Positions 19,997 to 54,165 of a DNA stretch of 64,000 bases are shown here, one piece after another (within the stretch, counting starts at the first letter, position 1; each line of letters begins with the position of its first letter). Source of the DNA: Hanleya hanleyi (lineage: Eukaryota > Mollusca > Polyplacophora > Lepidopleurida > Hanleyidae); assembly GCA_036873755.1 (NCBI GenBank), contig JAVTVY010010516.1, forward strand, positions 62,001-126,000, given 5' to 3'. The position numbers and the translations under genes are program-made. The notes beneath the pieces are model-generated. The model saw nothing but the letters and a program-made list of their open reading frames with translations. It made no database searches and had not been told where the DNA came from.

Positions 19997-20127
19997 CCTT
20001 CATCCACCCAGGGACATTGTATCGTGAATGCTCCAGTGTCCGTCACTCCATACTTGTTCTCTTCTGTCGATTGGTACGAAATGTCAACTATGGATGCCGG
20101 GTGGAAATTCCACTCCAAATTAACCTT
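19038..20127 (-). CDS. axin: Axin first coding exon: 5' UTR end, tankyrase motif and RGS domain
   Basis: Coding starts at the ATG at 19996 and runs to the donor (AGG|GTGAGT) at 19038. The tankyrase peptide RPPVPGEE is followed by a Ser/Gly-rich linker, then the complete RGS domain beginning [20 protein letters not shown]. Upstream of the ATG there is an excellent 3' splice site (TTTCTCTCATTTCAG|AAGG) at 20127/20128. This exon therefore carries about 131 nt of 5' UTR, and at least one non-coding exon lies upstream. Confidence 0.9.
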
Positions 20128-37526: not shown

Positions 37527-37532
37527 TATAGC
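37527..37532. other. Left target-site duplication of element 1 (TATAGC)
   Basis: TATAGC lies directly before the AGTAGTAGGG terminus and is identical to the six bases directly after the other terminus (50357-50362). A 6-bp duplication is the known signature of Polinton integration. Confidence 0.92.
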
Positions 37533-37624
37533 AGTAGTAGGGAGCGAGGGTTTCGACGCGGTTTTTCCAGGGAGGTAACTCTGTTTTGTGGAGGTCACGT
37601 GAAGGGGGCACCATCAGTACCGTA

Positions 37625-37710
37625 TGACGTCACTTCCGGTCTGGGTGAATGGCGCGTGACCTGTGAACTGTATGACGTCACTTCCGGTCTGGGTGAATGG
37701 GGCGTGACCT
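37625..37710. promoter_or_regulatory. Paired CRE plus ETS-like sites near the left end of element 1
   Basis: TGACGTCACTTCCGGTCTGG occurs twice in tandem about 54 bp apart (the CRE cores at about 37625 and 37675). TGACGTCA is the CREB/ATF palindrome and ACTTCCGG an ETS-type core. Equivalent sites, with one CRE changed to TAACGTCA, lie inverted in the right TIR at 50197-50265. Function as promoter or enhancer is inferred. Confidence 0.5.
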
Positions 37711-37807
37711 GTGAACATGATAGGATATGTACTGACCTGTCTGTGGGGACTCAATGTCGTTCATCTCCGTGTCTTTTGGTGAGAGGAACATGTACTGGGG
37801 TTTTTCC

Positions 37808-38247
37808 CACTCGACACAATCTCGGACAATGTAGGACATTAGAACCTCGATCCGCACTGGTAGGAATCTATATTGGCATCCATATTGAAAGAATAATATC
37901 ACGCGGAAACTCCGAACGGCGCATGTCAGCTGTATGACTTCCGTTACCATGGACACTGATGAAGATTAGCTCAAGAAGAAAAACCGAGAGAAACACCTCA
38001 AATTAGAAGAGATTCTTCCCGGGTAGAATCAAGGGAATGTCCATTTCATTTGGATATATATTTTATCTCCCGATAAGAGAGAAATACAAACGAGGACTAT
38101 GTGAGGGGAAACACATCCTACAGCATGTGATGTGCCTCACGTGCGGCGGATCACGGTTTACAGCTGAGAGCTGTAAAATCCTTCCACCATTAATACGCGA
38201 GGTATTATGACTTCACGGAATAAGCCGAGCAGTCGCGAATGGGGGTT
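37808..38247. repeat. Segment present only in the left TIR, flanked by GGGGTTTTYCCCAC
   Basis: The right TIR is continuous across this point, whereas the left TIR has about 440 extra bases between two copies of GGGG(G)TTTT(T)CCCAC. This is either an insertion with a target duplication of about 13 bp or a repeat-mediated deletion on the right. No coding capacity. Confidence 0.6.
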
Positions 38248-38261
38248 TTCCCACAATGTCG

Positions 38262-38402
38262 TTCACCTCCGTGTCTCTTCGGTCAGGTCCGTGTCTTTTC
38301 GGTGAGGTCCGTGGGAACATGATAGGAGACAATGTTGCGAAGATGTCACGGAGATCACCGAAGAGACACGGAGGTGCCCGAAGAGACACGGAGATCCCCG
38401 AA
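38262..38402. repeat. Inverted repeat inside the TIR (potential cruciform)
   Basis: CCTCCGTGTCTCTTCGGTCA and a second copy (GTGTCTTTTCGGTGAGGTCC) are followed about 60 bp later by inverse copies (CACCGAAGAGACACGGAGGT and CCGAAGAGACACGGAG). The same structure is present in the right TIR at about 49925-50075, where the loop also holds a GCAACATTGT/ACAATGTTGC hairpin. Confidence 0.7.
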
Positions 38403-38504
38403 GGGAGCGAGAGGGGTCCCTAGTGTACCGATGGGGTCGTATGAGGTATCAATGTGAAGCATTCGTGAAGGGGCATCTGATGGGGTGGGTGTGGAGTTGA
38501 AATA

Positions 38505-39610
38505 TCGCCATTCTGCGCATGCGCGGTAGACCAAGGGTATGGAAATAGACGTTTTGGGGTCTAGGGAAGCCCCTAGTGGTCCGATGGAGTCCAGTGAGGT
38601 ATCAATGTGAAGCCTATGTGAGGGGGCATCCGAGGGGCTGGGTGTGGGGTTGGAATATGGTCATTCTGCGCATCCGCGGTAGACCAAGGGTATGGAATAG
38701 CCGTTTTGGGATCTAGGGGAGCCACTAGTGGGTCGATGGGGTCGTATGAGGTATCAATGTGAAGCATTCGTGAAGGCGCATCCGACGGGCTGGGTGAGGG
38801 GTTGAAATATCGTCATTCTGCGCATGCGCGGTAGACCAAGGGTATGGAAATAGCCGTTTTGGGGTCTAGGTGGGTCCCTAATGGACCGATGGGGTCGAGT
38901 GAGGTATCCATGTGAAGCCTATGTGAGGGGGCATCCCACTGGGTGGATGTGGGGTCGGAATATCGTCATTCTGCGCATGCGCAATAGAGAAAGGGTATGA
39001 AAATAGACGTTTTGGGATGTAGGTGAGCCACTAATGAGCCGATGGAGTTGAGTGAGGTATCAATGTGAAGCATAGGTGAGGGGGCATCCGATTGGACTAG
39101 TGTCTCGGCCGTTGTCCACATTCTGCGCATGCGCAGACAGGTAATTCTGGGAAAAGGGTGTGGAAATAGACGTTTTAGGGTTTAGGTGAGCCCCTAATGA
39201 TCCTATGGTGTCGTATGAGGTCTTATTTTGAAGCTGTCATGAGGGAGCATCCGCCTGGGCTAGTGTGTCGTTCGTTGTCAATAGTCTGCGCATGCGCAGT
39301 CTGGCCGTAGTATAGAAATAGACGTGTTGGGGTTTAGGTGGGCCCCTATTGGGCCGATGGGATCGAGTGAGGTATCCATGTGAAGCAGTCGTGAGGGAGT
39401 ATCCGACGGGGTGGGTGTGACGTGGAACTGACGTCATTCTGCGCATGCGCAGTAGAGAAAGTGTATGGAAATAGACATTTTGGCGCCGACAGGGGTCACT
39501 ATGGGTCCGATGGAGTCGTATGAGGTCTTATGTTGAAGCTCTTGTGAAGCAGCATCCGATTGGACTCGGGGTTCGTCCGTGTTCAAGGGTCTGCGCATGC
39601 GCAGTCTGGT
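38505..39610. repeat. Array of about 152-bp units with NRF-1-like palindromes, left TIR
   Basis: The TTCTGCGCATGCGC(A/G)G core recurs at about 38512, 38664 (degenerate), 38818, 38971, 39123, 39288, 39439 and 39591, a spacing of 151-165 bp. Between cores each unit has (C/G)GTTTTGGGG(T)(C/T)TAGG, a GATGGGGTCGTATGAGGTA block and TCAATGTGAAGC. The core equals the NRF-1 binding consensus. Confidence 0.9.
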
Positions 39611-39873
39611 CGTAGTATAGAAAGCAGGCATGTTGGGGGATGCGTGGGTGTGTGTGTGTGACCCACCACTAGGGGTCCATGGTTGGGGTTGGGTGGTGGT
39701 GTGGGTTCTGCGCACCGACGTTACTTTCGGGTTTCACTAAAACTACCTTCGAACACAGAAGAGTTCCAGTGTTCCCCTTAGACGTAGGATCCGGCCCGGC
39801 CCCGCAGGGCGCGCGGGTTATCCGGCCGCAGCGCGCGCGCGCGGGTTATCCGGAAGTGCGCGGATGAATGTCG

Positions 39874-39922
39874 GGTCAAAAGGTCAAAGGTCACATGCAG
39901 GTCAAAAGGTCAAAGGTCTCCC
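39874..39922 (+). promoter_or_regulatory. Repeated AGGTCAAAGGTCA (DR1-type) sites inside the left TIR
   Basis: GGTCAAAAGGTCAAAGGTCA is followed by a second copy of AGGTCAAAAGGTCAAAGGTC. AGGTCAAAGGTCA is the classic direct-repeat-1 site for HNF4/RXR-type nuclear receptors. The block lies just inside the TIR, about 550 bp upstream of the first gene. It is absent at the right end. A regulatory role is inference. Confidence 0.4.
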
Positions 39923-40405
39923 TTTTGGCAAGGTTCGGCAACAATGTTGCGGCATCGAAATACAGAGCTTGAACCCCAAAAAGGGGATTGTAAATTAACC
40001 GGGGAAGGATGGGCAGTTCCATTTGGACCAATCAGCGGTCGAGAAAAAGAGCCAATGAGCGATCGATAAAAGAACCAATGGACGGGTACTAGAATTTCGC
40101 TCAGGGCTGCGCCTACATCCGGGTACTAGGATGCTTTCGCCTACGCCCGCGCCTACATCCAGGTACTTCTATGTAGGTGTATAAAAGTGGGAATATTTAG
40201 GGCATTGCTGCATTCATTGGCCTATTTATCCTTATTTTGTGCTTAAGCTTTGACTAGTGAAATCTCATGTTAAATGAAATCCTATACAAAATAACATTAC
40301 ACTACCGAACAATCACGGACTTTCACGAAGGGCCGTCACAGGGTGTAGTAGAAAAAGCGCATTTCTAACCTTATTGACCTTATGGCGCAAGCGACTCACA
40401 CGGTG

Positions 40406-40437
40406 TATAAAACCCTACCCAACAGGTACACTATAAA
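40406..40437 (+). promoter_or_regulatory. TATA-type promoter of the left-hand plus-strand gene
   Basis: TATAAAA at 40406-40412 is followed by a second CTATAAAG at 40431. The ATG (in ACCATGG) is at 40474. Spacing from the first TATA box to the ATG is about 68 nt, compatible with a short leader. Confidence 0.55.
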
Positions 40438-40473
40438 GCCACCTCTCTCACCGTTCGCTTTTCATTCCCTACC

Positions 40474-41160
40474 ATGGCAGCGAGCGGAACAGAGCTTGCG
40501 TTATTCCAACTGACGTCCGACGTCTACCTCATCGTCAATGACGATCACCTGGAGCTGGTCCAAGACGCACCGCAGAAGGTGAAGATTTTGTTATCGCTAT
40601 CAGGCTGGACTCTATTGACACGATTGTTACAGGGAAAAGAGCCCGAAAGGGATTTCATGCACGTGGAAGTCGGTGTGCACATACGCACTGCTGGAGAGGA
40701 TTCCCTTTTTCCCCGGTTGGAACAGAGTGGAGGTACCTATATCACACTCTGTCCACCCTTATGGATGGCACTGAAAGATGTACTCCCCGAGGTGGATGAC
40801 TTACTACACCCCGAGGTGAAAGAAGGGACTGTGGCTACCCGGAGGCTTACACCTGGCTGCATCCTATTGTTGTACCCCAAACGAGTGGACCTCATCGATA
40901 GCGGACTTAGGTGTTGGTGTACGCCTGAACCCAAAGCGCACGTCTCTTTGTCACCGGAAGGATGGACTACCTTGAAACGGGTGTTGCTGGGTGACCTGTA
41001 CGGTGATAGCATTCACCTGTGTGACGACGTCTACATTTTCTGCGGTCCCTTTTTCGCTCGACTCCTCTGTCTGAACGACGGTGGTTTTACCCTGGACCCC
41101 GATCTATGGACGGCTTTGGAACAAGTAGTCCCCATTGTCGATAAGGTACTATCTCTATAG
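40474..41160 (+). CDS. Double-domain paralogue of a small PC4-like protein family
   Basis: 228 residues in two homologous halves (about 15-110 and 125-228). Each half has the plan: hydrophobic beta strands, LS..GWT.L.R.L.G, a short hairpin with GPFFARL-like residues, then L.P.LW.AL..V.P.VD.LL. The same plan occurs once in each of two minus-strand genes of this element. The twice-used beta-rich stretch followed by LSxxxWxxL resembles the PC4 single-strand DNA-binding fold, so a DNA-binding or transcription role is plausible but unproven. Start chosen at ACCATGG behind a TATA box. It is convergent with the integrase remnant, whose stop lies 37 bp beyond its own. Intact. Confidence 0.8.
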   Translation: MAASGTELALFQLTSDVYLIVNDDHLELVQDAPQKVKILLSLSGWTLLTRLLQGKEPERDFMHVEVGVHIRTAGEDSLFPRLEQSGGTYITLCPPLWMALKDVLPEVDDLLHPEVKEGTVATRRLTPGCILLLYPKRVDLIDSGLRCWCTPEPKAHVSLSPEGWTTLKRVLLGDLYGDSIHLCDDVYIFCGPFFARLLCLNDGGFTLDPDLWTALEQVVPIVDKVLSL

Positions 41161-41197
41161 GAGCCACATAACCAATCAGAATAGTACGTATCACGGA

Positions 41198-41455
41198 CTA
41201 CACCCGTAGAGCTACATCTAGGCGCGCATGTGTGACAGGATCTATTCCTCCCACGATGACCCGGTTCCGTAGAAAGTGGCGACGGACAGATCGATGTAAG
41301 GTATAGGTGTCTTGTTTTCTTAACCAATCTCGGACTTGGGCACGTTGTATCCCCTGGGGTTTGGCCGCTCGATAGAGAGCCGACAATGCACTATAGGCCA
41401 CCGGACTGTCGGGACTGTAGTATAAGTTATCCAACACCTTTTCCCAGCGCTTCAT
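41198..41455 (-). CDS. Integrase N-terminal fragment (Polinton c-integrase, catalytic core missing)
   Basis: 85 residues beginning MKRWEKVLDNLYYSPDSPVA, with YRAAK..GI.R.QVRDWLRKQ.TYTLH..VRR.F.RNRV. This matches the N-terminal helical domain of the Polinton retroviral-type integrase (the F54H12.3-like family). Similarity ends where the catalytic core (DQWQADL region) should begin; the frame then reads about 15 unrelated residues to a stop, so the DDE core is wholly absent. It has its own TATAAATA at 41491-41498 and a clean ATG 36 nt below it, so it may still be expressed. It could be a remnant or a retained DNA-binding regulator. Confidence 0.82.
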   Translation of the reverse strand: MKRWEKVLDNLYYSPDSPVAYSALSALYRAAKPQGIQRAQVRDWLRKQDTYTLHRSVRRHFLRNRVIVGGIDPVTHARLDVALRV

Positions 41456-41482
41456 GGTGACAAATGATGATGGACCCTGGCT

Positions 41483-41995
41483 CTATCGTTTATTTATAAC
41501 GGGTATATCTTGGGCCGGAGTTTCTTTCTCATTTTCTTCGTTGGCTTCCACAGTGTTCATGGTAAATGACCAGTCCAACTCGTCTGATGACCGCTTGATA
41601 AGCACTTGATCCACATCTACCACGGCATCTTCCAATGCAGACCATAGATCAGGGTGAAGGGTAAAATGCACTGTACCCCCATCTAGCCGAGCCAATTGAG
41701 CAAAGAAAGGGCCGCGTCGGATGTACACATCGTGACACAAGTGAATGAGGTCGCCGTCCAGTTCACCAGACAACACCCGTTTGAATTTGGTCCAGCCCTC
41801 CCGGGACAGACGAATGTGGGCCGGGCACGGTTGTGTAGGGTCCGCATCACAGATGTCTCCCACCTGCTCCATGATATCGACCTTATCTGCATAAACGTGC
41901 AGGAAAACCGCGGGGGTCAAGCTGAGATACGCCAGTATTATATGCTCCGTTATGGTCAGTACGTGAATGGTACCAGATTTGACTGTCTCTCGTAT
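41483..41995 (-). CDS. Single-domain PC4-like paralogue lacking an ATG start
   Basis: The domain starts at LTPAVFLHVYADKV (41920) and runs through HIRLSREGWTKFKRVLSGEL and GPFFAQLARL to an acidic tail, for about 146 residues. It is closely related to the gene at 41996-42535. The frame is open from the previous gene's stop at 41996, but there is no ATG before the domain; the position matching the paralogue's ATG reads ATA. Either the start is lost, a non-ATG codon is used, or a base is wrong. A TATAAATA box lies at 41993-42000. Confidence 0.65.
   Translation of the reverse strand: MRETVKSGTIHVLTITEHIILAYLSLTPAVFLHVYADKVDIMEQVGDICDADPTQPCPAHIRLSREGWTKFKRVLSGELDGDLIHLCHDVYIRRGPFFAQLARLDGGTVHFTLHPDLWSALEDAVVDVDQVLIKRSSDELDWSFTMNTVEANEENEKETPAQDIPVINKR
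41491..41498 (-). promoter_or_regulatory. TATA box of the integrase fragment, inside the upstream gene's 3' end
   Basis: TATAAATA on the minus strand lies within the last codons of the preceding open frame (stop TAG at 41483-41485). The ATG at 41455 follows 36 nt after it. The same TATAAATA-type box precedes the other two minus-strand genes. Confidence 0.6.
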
Positions 41996-42000
41996 TTATA
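41993..42000 (-). promoter_or_regulatory. TATA box overlapping a stop codon
   Basis: TATAAATA followed by CGAG on the minus strand. The TAA at 41998-41996 inside it is also the stop codon of the upstream paralogue gene. The following gene therefore begins transcription from within the end of its neighbour. Confidence 0.6.
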
Positions 42001-42535
42001 GGGAGAACCCCGTGAGATCAAAGGATCGGCTGGTCATATCACTGGGCTGACTGAGTCTAGCCGGATAATCAATGGCATCATCGTCTGGTTCATTGCTAGG
42101 TTTGGTAATTTGTTCATTGGGTTCTGCCGCCGCTTCACTCAGGGCACGAGCCCACTCCAACTGAACAGCTGACCGCTCGTCCGGTGTAAACAGCTGGTCC
42201 ACAATAGGCACCACTTTCTCGAAGGCTGTCCACAGATCGGGGTCTAGGGTGAAGCCTCGCGTAGGGTCTTGGTAACGGCTCAGGCGTGGGAAGAAGGGTC
42301 CACGGTATACGTAGATGGCATTGTCTATGTGGATGAGGTTTCCGTCGAGCTCACCGCTCAACACCCGTTTAAATTTGGTCCAGCCGTCACGGTGTAGCGT
42401 AACCATATTCGATACGGTCTCAGCGCGCGACCAGCAAACATCTCCACGGTCTTCCACGAGGGTGACTTTATCTTCATAGACGTGTAACCCCACCCGGGGT
42501 GTAAGGGGAAGGATGGCTCGTAGGACTGGTGACAT
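41996..42535 (-). CDS. Single-domain PC4-like paralogue
   Basis: 179 residues from the ATG at 42535. The plan is LTPRVGLHVYEDKVTLVED, then LHRDGWTKFKRVLSGELDGN, an IYVYRGPFFPRL hairpin, and FTLDPDLWTAFEKVVPIVDQL, followed by an acidic, Asn/Glu-rich tail of about 65 residues. The tail differs from that of its neighbour, so the domain is conserved and the tail variable. An upstream ATAAATACGAGG box at 42586-42592 supports the start. A longer frame through GTG exists but is unlikely. Confidence 0.78.
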   Translation of the reverse strand: MSPVLRAILPLTPRVGLHVYEDKVTLVEDRGDVCWSRAETVSNMVTLHRDGWTKFKRVLSGELDGNLIHIDNAIYVYRGPFFPRLSRYQDPTRGFTLDPDLWTAFEKVVPIVDQLFTPDERSAVQLEWARALSEAAAEPNEQITKPSNEPDDDAIDYPARLSQPSDMTSRSFDLTGFSL

Positions 42536-42585
42536 GCTTGATCCAATGACGAACGGTGAATGACACACACTCTGTCTGACCCTCG

Positions 42586-42592
42586 TATTTAT
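42586..42592 (-). promoter_or_regulatory. TATA-like box (CATAAATACGAGG)
   Basis: ATAAATA followed by CGAGG on the minus strand, 51 nt before the ATG at 42535 and 16 nt after the stop of the upstream gene. It shares the extended phrase ATAAATACGAG with the box at 41993-42000. Confidence 0.55.
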
Positions 42593-42607
42593 GGTGAGGT
42601 CCCACTG

Positions 42608-42904
42608 TCAATGCCACAGCGCCAGGGTCAATAGGGCACAGACTATTGTGAGGCCAACCAGTCGTCGCTGGTTCCGGCGTGAGCGCTCGTGGTCCATAGC
42701 CCGAGCATCAAGGATGGCTGTCATAGTCCAGTAGTGGTGAGTGATGGCACATCTCTCCATCGAGTGCACTCTGTCGAGGACCGCTTCTGTGAACTCTTTC
42801 AGGATCTGGCGTCGCCCCTCGTTGTCGTCCCCATCTGCAAACATGGACCGAACCACTGCTTGGTAACCCGTGAGTGAATTAACCACGGTGGCATGCTGTC
42901 GCAT
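42608..42904 (-). CDS. Small protein with C-terminal membrane segment
   Basis: 98 residues. A soluble N-terminal part with RRQILKEFTEAVLDRVHSMER is followed by a basic stretch (RSRRNQRR) and then LVGLTIVCALLTLALW at the extreme C-terminus, a single tail-anchor-like membrane helix. I do not recognise the family. It lies at the head of the minus-strand gene block, divergent from the ATPase gene across about 340 bp. Confidence 0.6.
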   Translation of the reverse strand: MRQHATVVNSLTGYQAVVRSMFADGDDNEGRRQILKEFTEAVLDRVHSMERCAITHHYWTMTAILDARAMDHERSRRNQRRLVGLTIVCALLTLALWH

Positions 42905-42945
42905 AGGGCTGGATCTCCGTCATGGCTCTGCAACCGTAGAAATGA

Positions 42946-43347
42946 AGGTGTGGGATCAACCCCGTATCGAGCCCAGTCACCACCACACCCCGTGTACAAG
43001 CCACGTCGAGCTCCACACCAAGCTCCACACCTACACCAAGTACACCCACTACGTCTGAAAACCCACCGGATTTCATCCCTCACAGTGAACAGACAACGAC
43101 GACCGACGTTGTACCCACCACCATCATCCCTCACAGTGAACAGACAACGACGACCGACGTTGTACCCACCACCACCACTCCAGTTCACTCGTACCAAATT
43201 TACAAGAGCGGGTTACCACGACAACGGATACACCTCGAACCATGGATCCTCGGTGGCAGCATCCCTTCACTTGCGTCATCGCAGGACCGACGGGTTCCGG
43301 CAAAACGCACTTCGTCAGGAAGCTCCTTCAACACGCCGACAGCATGA
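42946..43347 (+). other. Thr/Ser/Pro-rich open frame without ATG
   Basis: The frame is open from 42946 to the TGA at 43345-43347 and reads as a mucin-like run (TTTPRVQATSSSTPSSTPTP) with HSEQTTTTDVVPTT encoded twice by a 48-bp tandem duplication (about 43075-43172). There is no ATG. It overlaps the ATPase start in another frame. It may be a remnant of a surface/stalk protein, a spliced exon, or simply promoter DNA with C/A-rich composition. Confidence 0.3.
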
Positions 43348-43850
43348 TCACCCCACCCATTGCCCGAGTCGTGTGGTGTTACGGAGAATGGCAGGAAGCG
43401 TATGCAGCAATGCCCCACATCACGTTCGTGGAAGGCCTACCCAACCTGGCCGATTTGGAACCCGACACCTTGGTGGTTCTGGATGATCTCATGGCGGAGA
43501 CGGATGCGCGGGTCACCCAACTCTTTACCAAAGGCAGCCACCATCGACGGCTCAGCATCATCTACATTGTGCAGAATCTGTTCAGTAAAAACAAAGAACA
43601 TCGGAACATCAGCTTAAATGCCCACTACCTGGTGGTCTTCAAAAACCCGAGAGATACCACACAACTGCTGCACCTGGCGAGACAGATGTATCCCGGCCGC
43701 ACACCGTTTGCGTTGGAAGCCTTTAAAGATGCGACAACCCCTCAGCACGGGTATATGCTCTTCGACCTCAAGCAAGCCACCCCCGACCACCTTCTACTAC
43801 GGACCGGCATCTTTCCCGGAGAGACCCACCACGTGTACATGCAAAAATAA
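43242..43850 (+). CDS. DNA-packaging ATPase (A32/FtsK-HerA type)
   Basis: 202 residues, intact. Walker A GPTGSGKTHFV at about residues 15-25 and Walker B LVVLDDLM at about 77-84. Then QLFTKGSHHRRLSIIYIVQN, a sensor-like segment typical of Polinton and NCLDV packaging ATPases, and FKNPRD. It is expected to drive genome DNA into a preformed capsid. Start ATG at 43242 in ACCATGG. It heads the virion gene block, all on the plus strand. An AATAAA-like signal at about 43907 lies between it and the next gene. Confidence 0.92.
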   Translation: MDPRWQHPFTCVIAGPTGSGKTHFVRKLLQHADSMITPPIARVVWCYGEWQEAYAAMPHITFVEGLPNLADLEPDTLVVLDDLMAETDARVTQLFTKGSHHRRLSIIYIVQNLFSKNKEHRNISLNAHYLVVFKNPRDTTQLLHLARQMYPGRTPFALEAFKDATTPQHGYMLFDLKQATPDHLLLRTGIFPGETHHVYMQK

Positions 43851-44004
43851 TGTAAACACACGCACAGTGGCGCCCCCAGCTGGGGTGTGTGCGTTTGATG
43901 ATGGGGATAATAAAAAGAATGAATACCACAGCATGGTTGACTTTGTCTCTGTTCTCTGAAGTAGATAAAAAGGGCAGAGTTGTGGGTTTTAGCATTAGTT
44001 GCAC

Positions 44005-44349
44005 ATGATGTCTGCGCGAGTACGGAAGCACGCTCCGACGCTCCGTGTATTGAAGACGGCCCCACCCGAGTTGGTCCGAACCATTGTACGCAGTGCGGAC
44101 CCTGACCTTGGACGCTGTCTGTGCGAGATCGGGTACAACCTGTTAAAAGGCAACGTACCACTGACTCCGGCTCAGAAGACCAAGTTGGCCAAGCATAAGA
44201 CAGGTCTCCGAACCCTAGTCCAGAAGCGGGTCCCTCAAACACAAAAGAAAAAGGTGTTACAGAAAGGCGGCTTTCTCGGGGCCATCTTAGCACCGTTGGC
44301 CGCTTCGGTGTTGGGTCCAGTATTGGGTGGACTCTTCGGCCGACAATGA
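44005..44349 (+). CDS. Basic protein with Gly-rich hydrophobic C-terminus (virion core/membrane type)
   Basis: About 114 residues. A helical N-terminus (PPELVRTIVRSADPDLGRCL) and a Lys/Arg-rich middle (QKRVPQTQKKK) precede LQKGGFLGAILAPLAASVLG and PVLGGLFGRQ. The latter is the conserved hydrophobic Gly motif found in the small virion protein of Polintons and adintoviruses. Likely roles are DNA condensation or membrane interaction. Two ATGs (44005, 44008) could start it. Its stop overlaps the next start as ATGA. Confidence 0.75.
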   Translation: MMSARVRKHAPTLRVLKTAPPELVRTIVRSADPDLGRCLCEIGYNLLKGNVPLTPAQKTKLAKHKTGLRTLVQKRVPQTQKKKVLQKGGFLGAILAPLAASVLGPVLGGLFGRQ

Positions 44350-45155
44350 ACCACACGAAAAAAATGGTCCTCGTCGAACCACGGTTCCTTCAAAACCTCC
44401 AATCGCCCTACCCTGTCCCATCTACGGTGAAGACCATAAACACCCTCGATGGAGAGATGCAACAGATCTTACAGAGACCGGGGTTAAGCGACAGTGAGAA
44501 AGTACAACGGTACAATGAGACGCTTCAACGGTACATGACATTCATGGACCAATACAAAACCCTCTCTACCCCACCACCACCACCACCACCACGTGACACA
44601 CCGCCGACCTCAGCACCGCTCCAACAGCCGCCATTACCAGGGGTACCACCCACAGCCCCACAGTGGGTGGAAGACGAAGTCCTGAAGAGTGTACCTGCAT
44701 CGTTCAAGAAACAAGCTGGCCTGGTATTACAACGGATGAAACAGAATCCTAACATGACTTGGAATGATAAAGGCGAACTACCTGGTACAGAATCAGGTGG
44801 TCTCCGGGACCCACATGACGGATTTAGTGAATGACCTGATGCGTAAACGCAGGTCGCACACGGATCCTCGAGGATGGGAGGTCTTCGCTCAAGGCTTGAA
44901 AGACAACCCCCACCGCTGGGCCTTTATGCAGCGAACCCAGCAATCGCCGAGTGGCCCACTACCTTCTTGGGAATCCGAATGGGAACCGGAGTCACCCCCA
45001 AAACACCACCACCACAACGGGCACATTCTTTTCAGACCTTTAAAAAACCATCCTTGATCAGGACACCCCACATCTCCAGAGCCGTGACACGTAGCAAGTC
45101 AACGCGACGAACACGACGCCGGACACAACCGCCCAAGCCCTGGAATACCTATTAA
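44346..45155 (+). pseudogene. Proline-rich virion protein gene interrupted by two frame changes
   Basis: The first frame (44346-44834) has LQSPYPVPSTVKTINTLDGEM, a run of prolines at 44570-44592, and an FKKQAGLVLQRMKQNPN segment. Similarity then continues in another frame (about 44780-45000, with TDLVNDLMRKR..DPRGWEVFAQ) and returns to the first frame for a basic tail ending RRTRRRTQPPKPWNTY. In relatives this is one uninterrupted protein of the capsid block, function unknown. The two shifts lie near 44765-44800 and 44930-45030. They could be decay or sequencing indels. I do not reconstruct it. Confidence 0.65.
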
Positions 45156-45188
45156 AACCAACAGCAGCAGCAGGACAGCTCAGTCGCC

Positions 45189-45968
45189 ATGTTTTACCTC
45201 ACCCTACCCAGTAACAGTTCGCTGGATGTGTTTCCTGACAACACCTTGGCCAAGTACGTGACCCAGTTACCGCAACCGTTGCATTTACCTGGGCGCTGGG
45301 AATGTGGCCTCGTGGATATCCAATACCCTTACTCGTGGTACAACGTGCGAGCCAATGAAGTGTGGTACGAGGTGACCTACGAAGGAAAAGACACCCGACT
45401 CACCCTCCCCGAAGGCCAATACGATACTCCCAAGAAGTTCATCGGTGGGCAGTCAAGACTGTTGCATTATAAGGCTCTACGGGAGGTCACGAATACTTCA
45501 AAACCCATCAAATCCTTTCCCTTCAAGAATCACGTGGACTTCGATTACAACGCACACAAGACAAGGCACAGCTTATCGTCTCCGCCAACGCGAGTGAGTC
45601 CTATCCTACAGCAAATGCTGGGTTTCGATCTACGGACGTTCGCTGGTCCCACCGCCCACCAAGGCGAGATCCCGATGGATATGAAGTCGGGTATGTACGG
45701 ACTCTACGTCTACTCGGACGTGGTGGACAACCACATCGTGGGCGATATCAACACACCTCTGTTACGGATGGTGCCCATTAAAAAGTTGTATGGAGATCAA
45801 GTCACCCACAGTTTCACCCACATGCTCTACCTACCCGTACGACATCCCCACATCAACACTATCACGGTGGATATAAGAGATGACACGGGACGACCGGTGG
45901 CATTCGAACGCGGGAAAGTGGTGGTGACACTTCATTTTCGACAAGCACGTGCTCCCCACTTTGTATAA
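45189..45968 (+). CDS. Minor capsid (penton-like) protein
   Basis: 259 residues, intact. It starts MFYLTLPSNSSLDVFPDNTL, continues with LPGRWECGLVDIQYPYSWYN, and has a C-terminal VDIRDDTGRPVAFERGKVVV..LHFR block characteristic of the Polinton/adintovirus minor capsid protein, predicted as a single jelly roll forming capsid vertices. The stop overlaps the next start (TAATG). The middle part is somewhat shorter than I would expect for the family, but the frame is whole. Confidence 0.82.
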   Translation: MFYLTLPSNSSLDVFPDNTLAKYVTQLPQPLHLPGRWECGLVDIQYPYSWYNVRANEVWYEVTYEGKDTRLTLPEGQYDTPKKFIGGQSRLLHYKALREVTNTSKPIKSFPFKNHVDFDYNAHKTRHSLSSPPTRVSPILQQMLGFDLRTFAGPTAHQGEIPMDMKSGMYGLYVYSDVVDNHIVGDINTPLLRMVPIKKLYGDQVTHSFTHMLYLPVRHPHINTITVDIRDDTGRPVAFERGKVVVTLHFRQARAPHFV

Positions 45969-46362
45969 TGAAGGTGCCTTACGAGTGCGATGCACGCAGC
46001 TATATGGACTATTATGCCCAACAGGCCGGCGGTGGTTTTAGTGGTGCACGCATGCAACGAGGACATGGACTGGGGAACATACTCGGGAGCATCGTCAAAA
46101 CGTTCCTGCCCTTGGTGACGCGTGGGGTGAAAGCAATCGGCAAACAAGCGGTACGCAGTGGACTGCAAGTCGCCGGTGATGTCTTGGGGGTACGGCACCC
46201 AAAGAAGCCTTGAAACGGCGGGCCAAAGAAGCAGGAGGCGTCTTGGTGGCCAAAGCACAACGCACCGTAGGGAATAAAAGACCTGCACCACCGAGACCAC
46301 GCACCAGTCGACGACCGACCCAGCGACGACGCACATCGAAGACCCAGGATATCTTTTCTTAA
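45968..46362 (+). pseudogene. pVI/pX-like basic capsid protein gene with one frameshift
   Basis: The first part (45968-46213) encodes a Cys/Tyr/Gly-rich start (YMDYYAQQAGGGFSGARMQR) and an amphipathic helix (ILGSIVKTFLPLVTRGVKAIG). After about 46190 the frame closes, but a different frame carries ALKRRAKEAGG and a highly basic, Arg/Pro/Thr-rich tail to the TAA at 46360-46362. Family members are single proteins resembling adenovirus minor proteins VI/X. The single shift lies near 46185-46200. The next gene starts 3 bp later. Confidence 0.7.
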
Positions 46363-46365
46363 AAC

Positions 46366-47660
46366 ATGTCCTTGATCCACGCAGAGTCCTGCCCCTCCAC
46401 CAACAGTGAATTTGATTTGTGGACCGTGCCGCCCACACAGACCAGTGCCGAACAAGGATTATGGGTGGAGCATCTCCCGCTGTCCAGCATCAACGCAACA
46501 GGGCCCATCGAGTTCACCATCAGTAATGCGGATACGGCCTATGTGGATTTAGCCCATACATACTTGTATGTGAAAGCCAACATCGTCAATGGGATGGCTC
46601 CAACGGTGGGCCCGACGAATCTCTGGCTGCACTCGATGTTTCAACAGGTGGATATATTTCTCAGCGACAAACTCATCAGTGACTCGACCAACACATACCC
46701 CTATCGAGCCTACATCGAGACGCTGTTGTCGCATGGGCGAGAGGCTAAAAAATCTCAACTGACAGCCGCTTTATTCTACCAGGACACAGCCCAGCACATG
46801 GGCGTAGAGAACGACAATGTGGGATATAACAAACAGAAGGCTTTGACCGCGAACGGCGTCGCGGTGGATCTCATGGGTCGACTGCACGCAGACATGTTCA
46901 TGCAAGACCGGTACCTGTTGAACAAGATCCCCATCAAAATCCGACTGATACGGGCGCCTCCGACCTTCGCCTTGATGGCCACTAACGTAGACGGGCATGC
47001 AGCTGACTATAAGATTGTCATCCAAGACGCAGTCCTGTATGTCCGAAAAGTGAAACCGAATCCAGCCGTTCAATTGGGACACCTCAAAGCCTTGGAAACA
47101 AAACCAGCTCAGTACCCTATCCGACGTGTGCAAACCAAAGTGTTCTCTGTGTCTGCTGGAAATATGAGCGCCAACAAGAAAATCTGTTCTTGGGGGAACT
47201 ACCCAAGCGATTGATCCTGGCCTGTGTGGAAAATACCAGTTTCAGCGGAGCCTACCCAGAGAACCCGTTTGACTTTAAACATTTCGGCATCAATTTTGTG
47301 GCCCTGCATGTGGATGGACAACAGGTCCCAGCCACGGCCTTAACACCGAACTTTGGACGCGCGAATTTCATTCGAGCATATCAGAGCCTGTTTACAGCCA
47401 CCGGTCAAATCAACCAGGACGAAGGGAATATGATCAGTCGGGAGGACTACGCGAACGGATACACGTTGTTCTGTTTCGATCTGACCCCCACTTTAGAGAA
47501 CGACAATCAGCTGGCCCTCGCCAAGCAAGGCAATGTACGGTTGGAAATCCACTTTGCACGAGCCCTCCGGAGCACCGTCAATGTGATCTGCTACGCCGAG
47601 TTTGACAACATCATTCAAGTGGACAAAGCGCGCAACGTCCTGTGTGACTTCTCCACCTAA
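46366..47660 (+). pseudogene. Major capsid protein (double jelly roll, F54H12.2-like) with one frameshift
   Basis: The first frame (46366-47214) begins MSLIHAESCPSTNSEFDLWT and contains FQQVDIFLSDKLISDSTNTY and YRAYIETLLSHG, hallmarks of the Polinton/adintovirus major capsid protein (the family known from C. elegans as F54H12.2). The C-terminal jelly roll continues in another frame (47190-47660) with NPFDFKHFGINFVALHVDGQ and a VDKARNVLCDFST end. The shift lies about 47165-47190, close to a CAAGAAAA run. All expected regions are present, about 430 codons in total, so only one base position seems wrong. I do not write the joined protein. Confidence 0.85.
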
Positions 47661-47661
47661 C

Positions 47662-48135
47662 ATGGATACAGACCAGATAACCACCGTGCTGGAGAATGAC
47701 CCAGAGACACATATGGTCTTTGAAGGGGTGTTCGCCCGAGATGTGTTCCCATTAGACCGTATGTATCCTGCTGCTTACGTTCTCAACACGGACCCGATGG
47801 ATCGGCCCGGTGAACATTGGGTGGGCGTGTACTTGACAGAACAGCAGGGCGAATACTTTGACCCTTACGGCCTGCCACCCCTCTATCCCGATTTAACAGA
47901 CTTCATGGATCAAGGCATAGAGACGTGGTGTTGGAACAGTCAAACGTTGCAAAGCCTGACCAGTAGCGTGTGCGGACAATATTGCTTGTTTTACCTGTAC
48001 CATCGATGCCGGGGAAGACCCTTATCTACCATCGTACAGATGTTTGACGAGTACTCCAAGGCCGAGGACCGCGATGTACTCGTATATGACTGGGCCGCCG
48101 ATCATTTCAATGTACATGCCCCGTTCTGGGCTTAA
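47662..48135 (+). CDS. Adenovirus-type maturation cysteine protease (C5-like)
   Basis: 157 residues, intact, starting at the ATG directly after the capsid gene's stop (TAAC ATG). The catalytic His is in GEHWVGVYL (about residue 54), the acidic partner in YFDPYG (about 71), the oxyanion Gln in NSQTLQSL, and the nucleophile Cys in SSVCGQYCLFYL (about 112). Such proteases cleave capsid precursors during virion maturation. Gene order MCP then protease is as in other Polintons/adintoviruses. Confidence 0.9.
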   Translation: MDTDQITTVLENDPETHMVFEGVFARDVFPLDRMYPAAYVLNTDPMDRPGEHWVGVYLTEQQGEYFDPYGLPPLYPDLTDFMDQGIETWCWNSQTLQSLTSSVCGQYCLFYLYHRCRGRPLSTIVQMFDEYSKAEDRDVLVYDWAADHFNVHAPFWA

Positions 48136-48245
48136 GTTCTTTCAATGTACATGCCCCCCTGTTCTGGGCTTAAGTTTACAAGCCCCCTGTTCTGGGCTTC
48201 AGTTCTTTCAATGTACAAGCCCTCTGTTCTGGGCTTCAGTTTTCA
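48110..48245 (+). repeat. Tandem copies of the protease gene's 3' end in its 3' UTR
   Basis: TCAATGTACATGCC followed by CTGTTCTGGGCTTAAGTT-like phrases, which form the end of the protease coding sequence, are repeated three more times, complete or partial, after its stop codon. An AATAAA polyadenylation signal follows at about 48278. Confidence 0.8.
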
Positions 48246-48424
48246 CGTGGTTGTTCTCACGTTGTTGTTGTTCACTGAATAAAAAAATGAGATCTCACCC
48301 AAAAAAACCCTTTCTTGTGTGTTTTCTTTATGAGCATAATGCATGAAAGCTATAACGGACATGTGGGGATTCGGTGAAACTGGTTTCGAACACCGTGGAG
48401 AAAGTAGCCCATCAGTGGCCTAGG

Positions 48425-50356
48425 ATAATCCGAACTTCACCCGCGCAGGCGTGCGGCCGGATAAGGCGCGCTCGCGCGCTGCGGCCGGAGTAACCCGCGC
48501 GCGCTGCGGCCGGCGCGGGGCGGAGCGGGGCCGGGCCGGGTCCTACGTCTAAGGGGAACATTGAAACTCTTCTGTGTTCGAAGGTAGTTTTAGTGAAACC
48601 CGAAAGTAACGTCGGTGCGCAGAACCCACACCACCACCCAACCCCAACCATGGACCCCTAGTGGTGGGTCACACACACACACCCACGCATCCCCCAACAT
48701 GCCTGCTTTCTATACTACGACCAGACTGCGCATGCGCAGACCCTTGAACACGGACGAACCCTGAGTCCAATCGGATGCTGCTTCACAAGAGCTTCAACAT
48801 AAGACCTCATACGACTCCATCGGACCCATAGTGACCCCTGTCGGCGCCAAAATGTCTATTTCCATACACTTTCTCTACTGCGCATGCGCAGAATGACGTC
48901 AGTTCTACGTCACACCCACCCCGTCGGATACTCCCTCACGACTGCTTCACATGGATACCTCACTCGATCCCATCGGCCCAATAGGGGCCCACCTAAACCC
49001 CAACACGTCTATGTCTATACTACGGCCAGACTGCGCATGCGCAGACTATTGACAACGAACGACACACTAGCCCAGGCGGATGCTCCCTCATGACAGCTTC
49101 AAATAAGACCTCATACGACACCATAGGATCATTAGGGGCTCACCTAAACCCTAAAACGTCTATTTTCACACCCTTTTCCCAGAATTCCCTGTCTGCGCAT
49201 GGGCAGAATGTGGACAACGGCCGAGACACTAGTCCAATCGGATGCTCCCTCACCTATGCTTCACATTGATACCTCACTCAACTCCATCCGCTCATTAGTG
49301 GCTCACCTACATCCCAAAACGTCTATTTTCATACCCTTTCTCTATTGCTCATGCGCAGAATGACGATATTCCGACCCCACATCCATCCAGTTGGATGCCC
49401 CCTCACCTAGGCTTCACATGGATACCTCACTCGACCCCATCGGTCCATTAGGGACCCACCTAGACCCCAAAACGGCTATTTCCATACCCTTGGTCTACCG
49501 CGCATGCGCAGAATGACGATATTTCAACCCCACACCCGGCCCGTCGGATGCGCCTTCACGAATGCTTCACATTGATACCTCATACGACCCCATCGACCCA
49601 TTAGTGGCTCCCCTAGATCCCAAAACGGCTATTCCATACCCTTGGTCTACCGCGCATGCGCAGAATGACCATATTCCAACCCCACACCCAGCCCCTCGGA
49701 TGCCCCCTCACATAGGCTTCACATTGATACCTCACTGGACTCCATCGGACCACGTTGCTCCCCTAGACCCCAAAACGTCTATTTCCATACCCTTGGTCTA
49801 CCGCGCATGCGCAGAATGACGATATTTCAACCCCACACCCATCCCATCAGATGCCCCTTCACGAATGCTTCACATTGATAACTCATACGACCCCATCGGT
49901 ACACTAGGGACCCCTCTCGCCCCCTTCGGGGATCTCCGTGTCTCTTCGGTGATCTCCGTGACATCTTCGCAACATTGTAGCGAACGTGCAACAATGTTGC
50001 AATCTCCTATCATGTTCCCACGGACCTCACCGAAAAGACACGGACCTGACCGAAGAGACACGGAGGTGAACGACATTGTGGGGAAAACCCCAGTACATGT
50101 TCCTCTCACCGAAAAGACACGGAGATGAACGACATTGAGTCCCCACAGACAGGTCAGTACATATCCTATCATGTTCACAGGTCACGCCCCATTCACCCAG
50201 ACCGGAAGTGACGTCATACAGTTCACAGGTCACGCGCCATTCACCCAGACCGGAAGTAACGTCATACGGGACTGGTGGCGCCCCCTCCACGTGACCTCCA
50301 CAAAACAGAGTTACCTCCCTGGAAAAACCGCGTCGAAACCCTCGCTCCCTACTACT
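48425..50356 (-). repeat. Right terminal inverted repeat of element 1
   Basis: Inverse of the left TIR, with the GC-rich block innermost and the AGTAGTAGGG terminus outermost. Cores of TGCGCATGCGCA type (two degenerate) lie at about 48727, 48886, 49031, 49193, 49350, 49500, 49653 and 49802. The CCGAAGAGACACGGAG inverted repeat is at 49925-50075. It lacks the 440-bp segment of the left side. Confidence 0.9.
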
Positions 50357-50362
50357 TATAGC
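50357..50362. other. Right target-site duplication of element 1 (TATAGC)
   Basis: Identical to 37527-37532. The LINE reading continues directly after it. Confidence 0.92.
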
Positions 50363-51391
50363 CTACAGGTTTTTTTGAACTCGTGAAGTTTGTTATTATC
50401 CATAGCATCCCACAAAGATTGAAACAACTTTCTCACATAAGTACAGATAGATGGTCGGAAATCACTGCATGGGATTCCAAAAGGATCAACCTCATCATCT
50501 AGGGCTGCATGCCTTAGTCATTTTATCAGCTTCAGTATCACCTTTGATGTCAACGTGACTAGGTACCCAACAAAAGTTGATCAAATTTACAGTCATATAC
50601 TTGTAAGATGGTGGGATGAGATGAATTTCCACTTTCAGTCGCTTGAAGGCATGGCACTGAATCTGAGAATATGACATATTTCTTCCTTTTAGTGGACCCA
50701 ATACCTTCTAAAGCCGACAATAGAGCTTTTGCTTCTGCAGTGAATATCGAACTTTTACCTGGTGGTCGATATGTTTTAGTTTTGGAACTAAAGATAGTAG
50801 CACATGCTACTCACTCACCATCTTTAGAACCATCTGTATAAATAGCCTGATGCGATCTGTATTTCTCTCTTAGAAGACCAAATTCTTTCGTATACACGAG
50901 CTGGCATTCGTCAATGTAATATTTACTTCTGGTTTGATTAACTGCCATGGTGGTGTTGGCAAGAGTTTGTTGGGTAAAATTTGATTAAGCTTAATACCAG
51001 CTGTTACAATGTGCGGTTTCATACGAATTCCAAGAGGTGGAATAATGGAGGGTTTCTTTAAATAGAAATCAACGTACTGAGGTTTGAAAACACAGTTATA
51101 TGCAAGATTTGAGTGATTAGAACGCGATTTTGTGATATATTGCAGTGATAATTTAATTCTTCGACGTTCTAAAGGTATTTCATCTGCTTCGACATATAAG
51201 CTTTCCTTAGGGGATGTTCTGAACGCCCCGAGGCAAAGCCTTAGTTCTTGATGGAGAATAGGATCTAGCTTTGCCAAGTTTGACCTGCTTGCATCGTTGT
51301 AAACAATAGAACCATAATCAAGTTTAGAACGAACAAGTGATCGATATAAATGAAGAAGCGTTTGCTGGTCTCCTCCCCACTTATAGCTGGC
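50363..51391 (-). pseudogene. LINE ORF2 middle part: RT C-terminus and RNase H
   Basis: On the minus strand: YKWGGD..TLLHLYRSLVRSKLDYG (not all in one frame), then LDPILHQELRLCLGAFRTSP, ESLYVEADEIPLERRRIKLS, and further on an FCWVPSHVDIKGDTEADKM motif, the His/Asp end of an RNase H domain. Several stops interrupt it. It lies between the two inserted elements. Confidence 0.82.
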
Positions 51392-51397
51392 AACTAC
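51392..51397. other. Left target-site duplication of element 2 (AACTAC)
   Basis: AACTAC directly precedes AGTAGTAATG and is repeated directly after the other end (57018-57023). Confidence 0.88.
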
Positions 51398-54000
51398 AGT
51401 AGTAATGTAACGGGAAATTCTGTCGGATTGACCTAAAAAAATTGCATATCTGTGACGTCAAGTTCACTATAGTTCTGGCACGTGACCGGAAGTGACCTTT
51501 GGGGCATGTATTCCTCCGCGGTGATGCGGTCTGGCGGTGATGCGGTCGCGGGAAGAAGCCTCCGCGGACAGAAAGTAGTCCCATGTCAAGGTCCCTTTTT
51601 TCTGGACGTTGCTTTTCCCCTGATTGGCATATGACGTCACTATGACGACGATACAGCCCACCAATCCCCAGTGTACGAGTTGTCACAGCGACACAGCTCA
51701 CCAATTACTAATATCCGAGTTGTCAGAGCATTTCCATCATAGCTCTCTAGATTTGTATCTGATACCGCTTATGCCGGTGCTAGGGGCCGTGTGGTCATGT
51801 CATCCAACTTGCCACATGAATAGGTACAATAAAAGCGTACCTGAGATACAACACATATCACGAATCGTTAGATTCTTTGTATGTGCTTTAATATAGGTTA
51901 ACCAGAAGATTATGCTGTGAAGCCATGTGACTCTGTCAATATGTCGGCACCTCTTCCCACTTCCCTTATATGTGTTGTAATCTTGTTTTTCTCGTCTCAC
52001 CGCGTAGAACACGATGGGAGGGGTCTCGAAGCTAAGCCGTGAATTTTTTTTGAGAAAGTCACTGTGCGCATGCGCATTGGGCAAGTAGCGCTGGGCGGAC
52101 GTTTTGGGGTCTAGGTGGACCCCTAGTGATCCGATTGGGTCGTATGAGGTATCAGTGTGAAGCACTCGTGGGAAAGCATCCGACTGGATGGGTGTGCCGT
52201 GAAAATCATTCTGCGCATGTGCAGTAAAAAAAGGGGCATGGGAATGGACGTTCGGGGGTCGAAATGGACCCCTAGTGGTCCGATTCGGCCACATGAGGTA
52301 TCAGTGTGAAGCTCTCCGTTTTCAACATTTGGCACATGCGCAGACAGGGAATTGTGGGAAAAGAGCATTGGGAGGGACGTTTTGGGGTCGAGGTGAACCC
52401 ATAGTGAGCCGATTGGGTCAAGTGAGGTGTCAATATGTAGCCCTCGTGGGGGAGCGTCCAACTGGATGGGTTGTATGGTAGGAATGTCGTCTATCTGCGC
52501 ATGCCCAGTAGAAAAATCGTATTTGAATGGACGTTTTGAGGTCGAGATGGACCCATAGTGGTCCAATTGGACCGTATGAGGTCTTATTTTGAAGTTCTTT
52601 TTGGGGTAGCGTCGGATTGGACTGGTGTCTAGTCCGGTTTTATCATTCTGCGCATGCGCAGTCTGGCCGTAGTATAGAAAGCAGGCACTTTAGGGGGTCT
52701 TTCCAGTGATTGATGGACCATCCGTGGTCCAAATGGACCGTGTGAGGTATCAGTGTGAAGCTTTCATGGGAATATATTTGCCTTTCAGGAATTTTCTGGG
52801 AAAACCCCTGTTCTATTAATAGACTACTTGGAAGTAGGAGAGAAAGGGGAGTTTCGGAGGTATAATGGAGTGTGTTTGGAGGAGATAAAGGCCTTTTCCA
52901 TCCAGCTACCTGGTAGAGTTACCTGTAAATGAGTGAGTGAGTGATTGAGTGAGTGAGTGGGGCGTGCCCCCAACGCCCGTGAGGCGTGCCAACGCCCGTC
53001 TTGACACATAAACGCACTAACGACGGTGAGTGAGTGAGTGAGAGTGAGTGAGTGGTCATATAAGGTCGTTTGTACACCATTAGGGCATTTCTGGTCACTT
53101 GACGGCCCAGCAAGAGTCATCTGCCCCTACATTAGCCGCAGTGACTTCTAGGGTGGACGTTTTGGGGTCTAGGTGGGCATATAGTGGCCCGATTCGGTCC
53201 AGTGAGGTGTCATCGTGAAGCACTCAAGGGAGGAGCGTCCGATTAGATGGGTGTGACGTGGAACTGACGTTATTTTGCCCATGCGCGGTAAAAAAGGTGC
53301 ATGGGAAGGAACGTTTTGGGATCGAGGTGCCCACTATTGGTCAAAATGGGTCGTGGGAGGTGTCAAAGTGAAGCGCTCCTCCAGGGCGATCAAATCATGG
53401 TTGGGTGGATGTAAAATTAGGATTGGGTTTGAACATATAAAAAGCGGAACACGGACTTTACTCCTAAACCATGGGGAATCATGGCTGTTTTGGGGTCCAG
53501 ACCATCCCCGGTCCAACAGTAACACAGTAATGCCCGTCAACGCCTACCTTAACGCTTCAACGCTCTGGTGAATTAGCCCTGAAGCTCTGATTTTCTAGAT
53601 ATTCCACGGAATTGTCACTAATTTATCGAAATGCAGTGACGCCCGTCAACGCCCGTCGTTACGCCTTAACGTCCGTCTCAACATCTTAACGTCCAACCTT
53701 AAAGCCTGATCTTAACGCCTTAACGCCTTAGCTTAACGCTTTAACGCGCTATAGTAACACCTTAACACCTTATCGTAACACCTTGATGCATGTATGGTAC
53801 ATCCATTTTATGTTATGCCTGTCATATTCGTTCTTGCCCGTTAGGTGTATTCTCGGCTGCGCTTGTCCAATCAGAAGTCGCCCTTTGAGAAACTACAGAA
53901 CTCGGAGCTGTGGGGTGGATCGATTAAGAATTCGGAGCTCTTGGAGCTCGGAGCTCTTGGAGGTTGTTAATCCCCATATGTACAGACACCACCATAACCA
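51398..54000 (+). repeat. Left arm of element 2
   Basis: Order from the end: terminus; CRE-like TGACGTCA and CCGGAAGTGACC near 51452-51500; short GGTGATGCGGTC repeats; a unique-looking stretch; a block of about 145-bp units with more or less intact TGCGCATGCGCA cores (52065, 52211, 52332, 52496, 52652 and 53277); GAGTGAGTGAGT runs; CCTTAACGCC-type octamer repeats (53640-53770); and a GAGCTC-rich end. Confidence 0.85.
53580..53775. repeat. CCTTAACG short tandem repeat
   Basis: About 15-20 imperfect copies of (A/G)(C/T)CTTAACGCC-like octamers. The inverse array is at about 54360-54500 in the other arm. Confidence 0.75.
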
Positions 54001-54052
54001 CCTAGTGTACCCTAGCTATGCCCCGGTAAAGGGTGCACTAGGTGTGTGTATG

Positions 54053-54083
<31 letters not shown>

Positions 54084-54165
54084 TGGTGTGTGTGCGTGTG
54101 TGTGTGTGCGTGCGTGCCCACGGGAGCTACCACCACCACCGGTCGTCAACACCCTGTGGTGGTGG
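54000..54165. repeat. (TG)n loop of the fold-back element
   Basis: A GTGTGTGTGT run at 54040-54115, flanked by CCACCACC/GGTGGTGG stretches that form the tip of the inverted arms. Confidence 0.8.

Follow-up and report, generated by a model that had tools for sequence, protein, structure and literature searches.

A Polinton-type element of Hanleya hanleyi with virion genes and without PolB or an integrase core: possible origin by internal deletion

We analyzed a stretch of 64,000 nucleotides from the mollusc Hanleya hanleyi (contig JAVTVY010010516.1, positions 62,001 to 126,000; hereafter "the window"). It contains an element of 12,824 bp, at positions 37533-50356, which is built like a Polinton (Maverick): it has terminal inverted repeats, a target-site duplication and homologues of a full cluster of virion genes, but two of the usual features of these elements, a protein-primed PolB and an RVE integrase with its catalytic core, are not found. 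The origin that we favor, with a probability of about 0.58, is by internal deletion from an ordinary animal Polinton, which would make the element a non-autonomous derivative. An autonomous parent of about 18 kb would have been deprived of PolB and of the greater part of integrase, while the virion cluster stayed in place and has begun to decay since then.

PolB and integrase

PolB was searched with the 1401-aa polymerase of a single relative, L002, the nearly complete locus described below. At E≤1 this query gave no match in the whole window, in agreement with an earlier note on this DNA, which had claimed that PolB is lacking. Sub-searches restricted to 39801-43241 and to 44780-45195 gave, among the matches listed, best E values of 0.46 and of 0.035 (over 23 aa) respectively; the search space being very small in both cases, these rows are taken as chance.

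For the integrase, one match lies inside the element: it covers residues 6-72 of 360, at 41440-41246 on the minus strand (E 2e-9), with 42% identity over 67 aa to the integrase of L002. About 70 residues are thus homologous, and the N-terminal part reported in the earlier note is indeed all that is present. The two further integrase rows in the window are weak (E 0.45 and 0.59) and both fall outside the element. Elsewhere, no short integrase N-terminus protein was a candidate sharing three words with the 85-aa remnant, a query that has few words. The Pfam scan was run on 10 of the 66 left-interior frames of at least 35 codons (39600-43300), plus others; in the scanned frames no polymerase, helicase, primase or integrase-core family reached the cut-off, and generic P-loop rows, below the cut-off, appeared for the packaging ATPase only. 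Since PolB and the integrase core are missing, the element would now be unable to copy or to insert itself.

Termini and repeat units

The sequence TATAGC stands exactly on both sides of the element. Polintons generate 6-bp target-site duplications, and both the perfect duplication and the terminal inverted repeats announced in the earlier note are borne out. The two arms pair, and the terminal 18-mer is common to both ends; in the window it occurs exactly twice, a count that does not rise if up to 3 mismatches are tolerated, and 100 shuffles give an expectation of 0. The arms measure about 2.3 kb (left) and 1.8 kb (right). Blocks in register are 96-99% complementary. Over 1865 aligned positions the arms differ at 40, a divergence of 2.1%, and the alignment has 10 gaps, the longest of which corresponds to 444 nt found in the left arm only (37802-38245).

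This 444-nt stretch is bordered on either side by similar short sequences (about GGGTTTTCCCAC), which gives it the look of an insertion.

The inner part of both arms consists of ~153-bp units that carry the palindrome CTGCGCATGCGCAG. This palindrome, which in our view resembles an NRF-1 site, was matched 22 times when up to one mismatch was tolerated; the arms account for 14 of these matches and the neighboring repeat structure for the other 8 (shuffle mean 0, 100 shuffles). The G+C content of the element is about 0.5, compared with about 0.4 across most of the window.

Virion gene cluster

All seven genes of the late cluster of L002 have homologues in the element, in the same order and on the same strand. 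These are, with their identity to L002, the genes for the ATPase (60%), a small protein (39%), a PTPX-like protein (34-51%), the penton (38%), a short protein (56%), the major capsid protein (MCP, 47%) and the protease (42%). The name PTPX is used as in the Polinton literature, and the penton is presumed to be one from the gene order of Polintons. The earlier note had claimed a complete set of virion genes. All seven homologues are present, but the set is not intact: the MCP frame is broken between 47169 and 47175, that of the PTPX-like gene shifts once between 44780 and 44800, and the open reading frame (ORF) starting at 45968 is short. The frames of the ATPase, the penton and the protease are open.

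Several of these products are characteristic of Polintons. The ATPase is of the A32/FtsK packaging type (Pox_A32, 24.9 bits for a cut-off of 22.8), and 1672 of 1739 candidates were retained as its homologues. The protease is of the adenain type (Peptidase_C5 at E 0.002, under the curated cut-off). The double jelly-roll MCP and the penton are recognized by homology to L002. The predicted structure of the L002 MCP matched 49 entries of BFVD at E≤0.001. Several of these are named major capsid protein, including a putative virophage MCP (2e-9) and the mavirus MCP (7e-6). At the top stands an uncharacterized protein of a bracovirus, and another entry bears the name adintovirus penton; the model itself is poor (pLDDT 47) and the TM-scores are mostly 0.2-0.3. 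Against PDB sequences the L002 MCP had no match. These structural matches of its homologue support the prediction that the MCP gene codes for a capsid protein.

Left interior

The left interior carries three paralogous genes, a, b and c, which we call PUR-like and whose frames are all open. Gene c stops straight after its second unit and has no C-terminal tail like that of a and b. Among 500 simulated stretches, a single one (0.002) had a third-longest frame of at least 170 codons. The dN/dS ratios of a, b and c are 0.20, 0.17 and 0.15; as dS is above 2 these ratios are rough, and they point, with the same roughness, to divergence under purifying selection.

At the thresholds used, these genes had no sequence match in Pfam, in PDB chains or in a set of 5.8 billion proteins. 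Their predicted fold is best matched by PURA, then by MRP1/2, PnpCD, Whirly, SsgB-like and PC4, from a model built on a three-row alignment (pLDDT 67.8); Foldseek on this model was not significant, its top rows being mostly PH domains and dioxygenases. We tentatively regard them as proteins of a PUR/Whirly-type fold, predicted to bind single-stranded nucleic acids. Whichever origin of the element holds, this family is a candidate for a new accessory or replication protein of Polintons.

We did not file these genes as PC4, because genes a and b have no Pfam row at E≤10 and the profile comparison was empty. A Pfam PC4 protein is encoded upstream of the Polinton-type ATPase in one related locus (L003:731-1249, E 2e-8), and we found no literature joining Polinton, PC4 and integrase.

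Table 1. Features of the element and its borders (positions in the window)
Feature	Position	Strand	Remark
Left target-site duplication TATAGC	37527..37532	.	read directly
Left terminal inverted repeat	37533..39805	+	inner part of ~153-bp units with palindrome CTGCGCATGCGCAG
Stretches with palindrome CTGCGCATGCGCAG	38513-39604, 48726-49814, 52211-55890
PUR/Whirly-like gene c (tentative)	40474..41160	+	228 aa, two units
Integrase N-terminal remnant	41198..41455	-	85-aa ORF, without catalytic core
PUR/Whirly-like gene b (tentative)	41483..41920	-	145 aa
Left-interior feature	41996..42568	-	Foldseek alone not significant
98-aa ORF	42608..42904	-	hydrophobic C-terminus; no Pfam match
Packaging ATPase (A32/FtsK type)	43242..43850	+	202 aa, open frame
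Small conserved late-cluster protein	43999..44349	+	E 1e-15 to L002:5175-5555
Conserved late-cluster protein, PTPX-like	44346..44904	+	E 1e-24 to L002:5677-6498
Penton (minor capsid) homologue	45189..45968	+	259 aa, open frame; E 1e-53
Short ORF	45968..46213	+	E 5e-20, residues 2-67 of the relative's 152-aa protein
Major capsid protein	46366..47660	+	two frames, 46366-47214 and 47190-47660
Adenain-type cysteine protease	47602..48135	+	open frame; E 3e-32 to L002
Right terminal inverted repeat	48525..50356	-
Right target-site duplication TATAGC	50357..50362	.	read directly

Related loci

Relatives were sought with an alignment of the ATPase: 17 stretches fitted the pattern and four loci, L001 to L004, were confirmed. 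Three of the four come from metagenome-assembled genome (MAG) records of tubeworm or mussel symbionts, and L003 from a record of an uncultured Bacteroidia; we infer that all four are contaminating eukaryote DNA. The tubeworm-associated L002 carries, in order, PolB, ATPase, small protein, PTPX-like protein, integrase, penton, short protein, MCP and protease, and its PolB and integrase are backed by the Pfam families DNA_pol_B_2 and rve. Inverted termini were not found in the L002 contig.

PolB is thus present in L002. L003 shows none but is 4.5 kb long, and L001 begins 291 bp before the ATPase and is uninformative on this point. The mussel-associated L004 has capsid genes and no PolB match at E≤0.01 in 20.6 kb; this locus is itself in decay, and neither of its ends was located. 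With four loci there is too little to claim a family devoid of PolB. In viral contigs no relative was confirmed, whether the query was the ATPase itself, its alignment, the first piece of the MCP, or the PolB or MCP of L002; phage records yielded none for the ATPase, and PHROGs gave weak rows only (best E 0.066).

In L004, two decayed integrase copies flank the ATPase (L004:8534-12690) and are 94% identical over 62 nt.

Origin of the element

The place of the presumed deletion is suggested by the left interior. The stops of gene c (41160) and of the integrase remnant (41198) are convergent and 37 bp apart. Because these two truncated genes converge at such a short distance, their junction is likely to be a deletion scar, probably at about 41155-41246, where both would have been cut. 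Adding to the 12,824 bp of the element the PolB (4.2 kb) and the integrase (1.1 kb), with their sizes in L002, gives about 18 kb, and this sum falls inside the 15-20 kb given for Polintons in the excerpted text of PMC4028283. Arms that are 2.1% apart, together with a few broken frames and several open ones, fit a copy that has been decaying since its insertion.

As for the order of events, we lean to a deletion that preceded the insertion, in which case a full-length relative sharing these termini would have provided integrase and PolB in trans. With the reverse order the copy would have inserted by itself, as an autonomous Polinton, and PolB and integrase would have been lost in place. This second order, which is included in the probability given above, we consider improbable, and a share of about the same size is left to readings not listed here. 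The divergence of the arms implies that time was available for a loss in place, and other lesions exist, namely the frameshifts and the differences in arm length. On the other side, the 3.4-kb left interior holds no convincing PolB debris (best E 0.46, among the matches listed) and the genes on either side of the presumed scar are still open, though neither point is strong.

Several observations weigh against an internal deletion. In the three loci that cover this region (L001, L002 and L004; L003 ends before it and was left out of the count) the integrase follows the PTPX-like gene and precedes the penton gene, 3 of 3, while here this gap shows no integrase (best row E 0.12, among the matches listed) and the remnant is at another place and on the other strand. 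A single deletion would then be enough only if the integrase had previously been moved or duplicated; this is possible, as one more copy of the integrase stands upstream of the ATPase in L004. Likewise, PolB directly precedes the ATPase in L002, whereas here two of the PUR-like genes (a and b) and the 98-aa ORF occupy this position; the gene order of the parent must then have differed. Finally, the parent copy was not seen.

The same empty integrase site, clean among the matches listed, is what one would expect of a stable lineage of capsid-coding satellites, which would make or share particles and rely on the PolB and integrase of a helper Polinton. We find this explanation unlikely, though it deserves to be weighed. 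The PUR-like genes speak for it, with their open frames, their low dN/dS ratios and long frames that rarely arise by chance; so does the best match of their predicted fold to PURA and then to the other proteins cited above, and an array of PUR/Whirly type may, in this scheme, bind or divert the strand-displacement intermediates of the helper. L004, which likewise has capsid genes without a PolB match, would be a second case. However, one copy of the element was seen and its MCP is frameshifted, and L004, with its two decayed integrase copies, has no ends found. The ratios are rough, dS being above 2, selection on the PUR-like genes could date from autonomous ancestors, and the fold comes from a small alignment, with Foldseek top rows of other kinds. 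That a satellite lineage would have exchanged PolB and integrase for an expanded PUR/Whirly-type set, living off a helper with the same termini, appears quite doubtful to us.

An assembly artefact, by collapse or mis-joining of a full-length copy, is very improbable: long inverted repeats are prone to mis-assembly, but in this case both the termini and the flanking duplications are exact, and the genes of the interior are in order.

The distinction between the internal deletion that we favor and a satellite bears on what the element is. A deletion confined to this one copy would make the element an ordinary deletion derivative and would count against the reading of the earlier note, which had proposed a trans-mobilised member, perhaps a satellite or one half of a split Polinton system. 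If its gene set recurs in other copies, we would have in an animal a particle-making counterpart of the virophage-like satellites, dependent on a relative for both replication and insertion.

Neighboring sequence

A second inverted-repeat structure, at about 51460-56970, shares the family of 153-bp units with the arms of the element, the units being 66-77% identical to those of the arms in the longer matches. Among the matches listed it has none to the outer 868 nt of the element; for this reason it is unlikely to be a partner of the element and was rejected as such. It is possibly a MITE-like relative (miniature inverted-repeat transposable element).

The ORF at 50870-51457 (minus strand) resembles, we presume, part of the reverse-transcriptase ORF of a non-LTR (long terminal repeat) retrotransposon; its shorter form, 50870-51277, has no Pfam match at E≤1. 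By eye, a sequence similar to 50870-51457 seems to recur inverted near 56960-57000. Further away, the ORF at 19034-19999 (minus strand) resembles, we presume, the RGS region of Axin, which points to an animal as the host.

Comparison with known systems

Incomplete Polinton copies and capsid elements without polymerase are both already on record, as far as the excerpted sources go: in one bird species two loci have seven of the eight core genes (PMC8097293), and many protist elements have no detectable polymerase gene (PMC10120064). In the literature covered we met no animal Polinton that has virion genes and neither enzyme, but no dedicated search was made and novelty is not claimed; the available portions of PMC11071308, PMC6431247 and PMC10294476 hold no comparable case.

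The fold of PURA, MRP1-MRP2, Whirly and PC4 is the one tentatively assigned to the PUR-like genes, which have no sequence match at the thresholds used and no significant Foldseek row. The capsid-bearing integrated elements of protists, as presented in the excerpt of PMC10120064, have, like the element described here, capsid genes without a detectable DNA polymerase; they differ from it in that no helicase or primase family was found here at the cut-off. The 72 Polintons counted in the excerpt of PMC4028283 comprise 46 with a full MCP, 13 with a split MCP and nine without MCP, these nine being also without protease and ATPase. The latter have likewise lost a module, but here it is the opposite module that is gone. 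Among the closest systems is the animal Polinton or Maverick (Polintoviruses, adintoviruses), of which L002 is an example: the element shares with it the seven virion genes, in order and strand, and differs by the lack of PolB and of the integrase core, by its PUR-like left interior and by the displaced remnant of the integrase.
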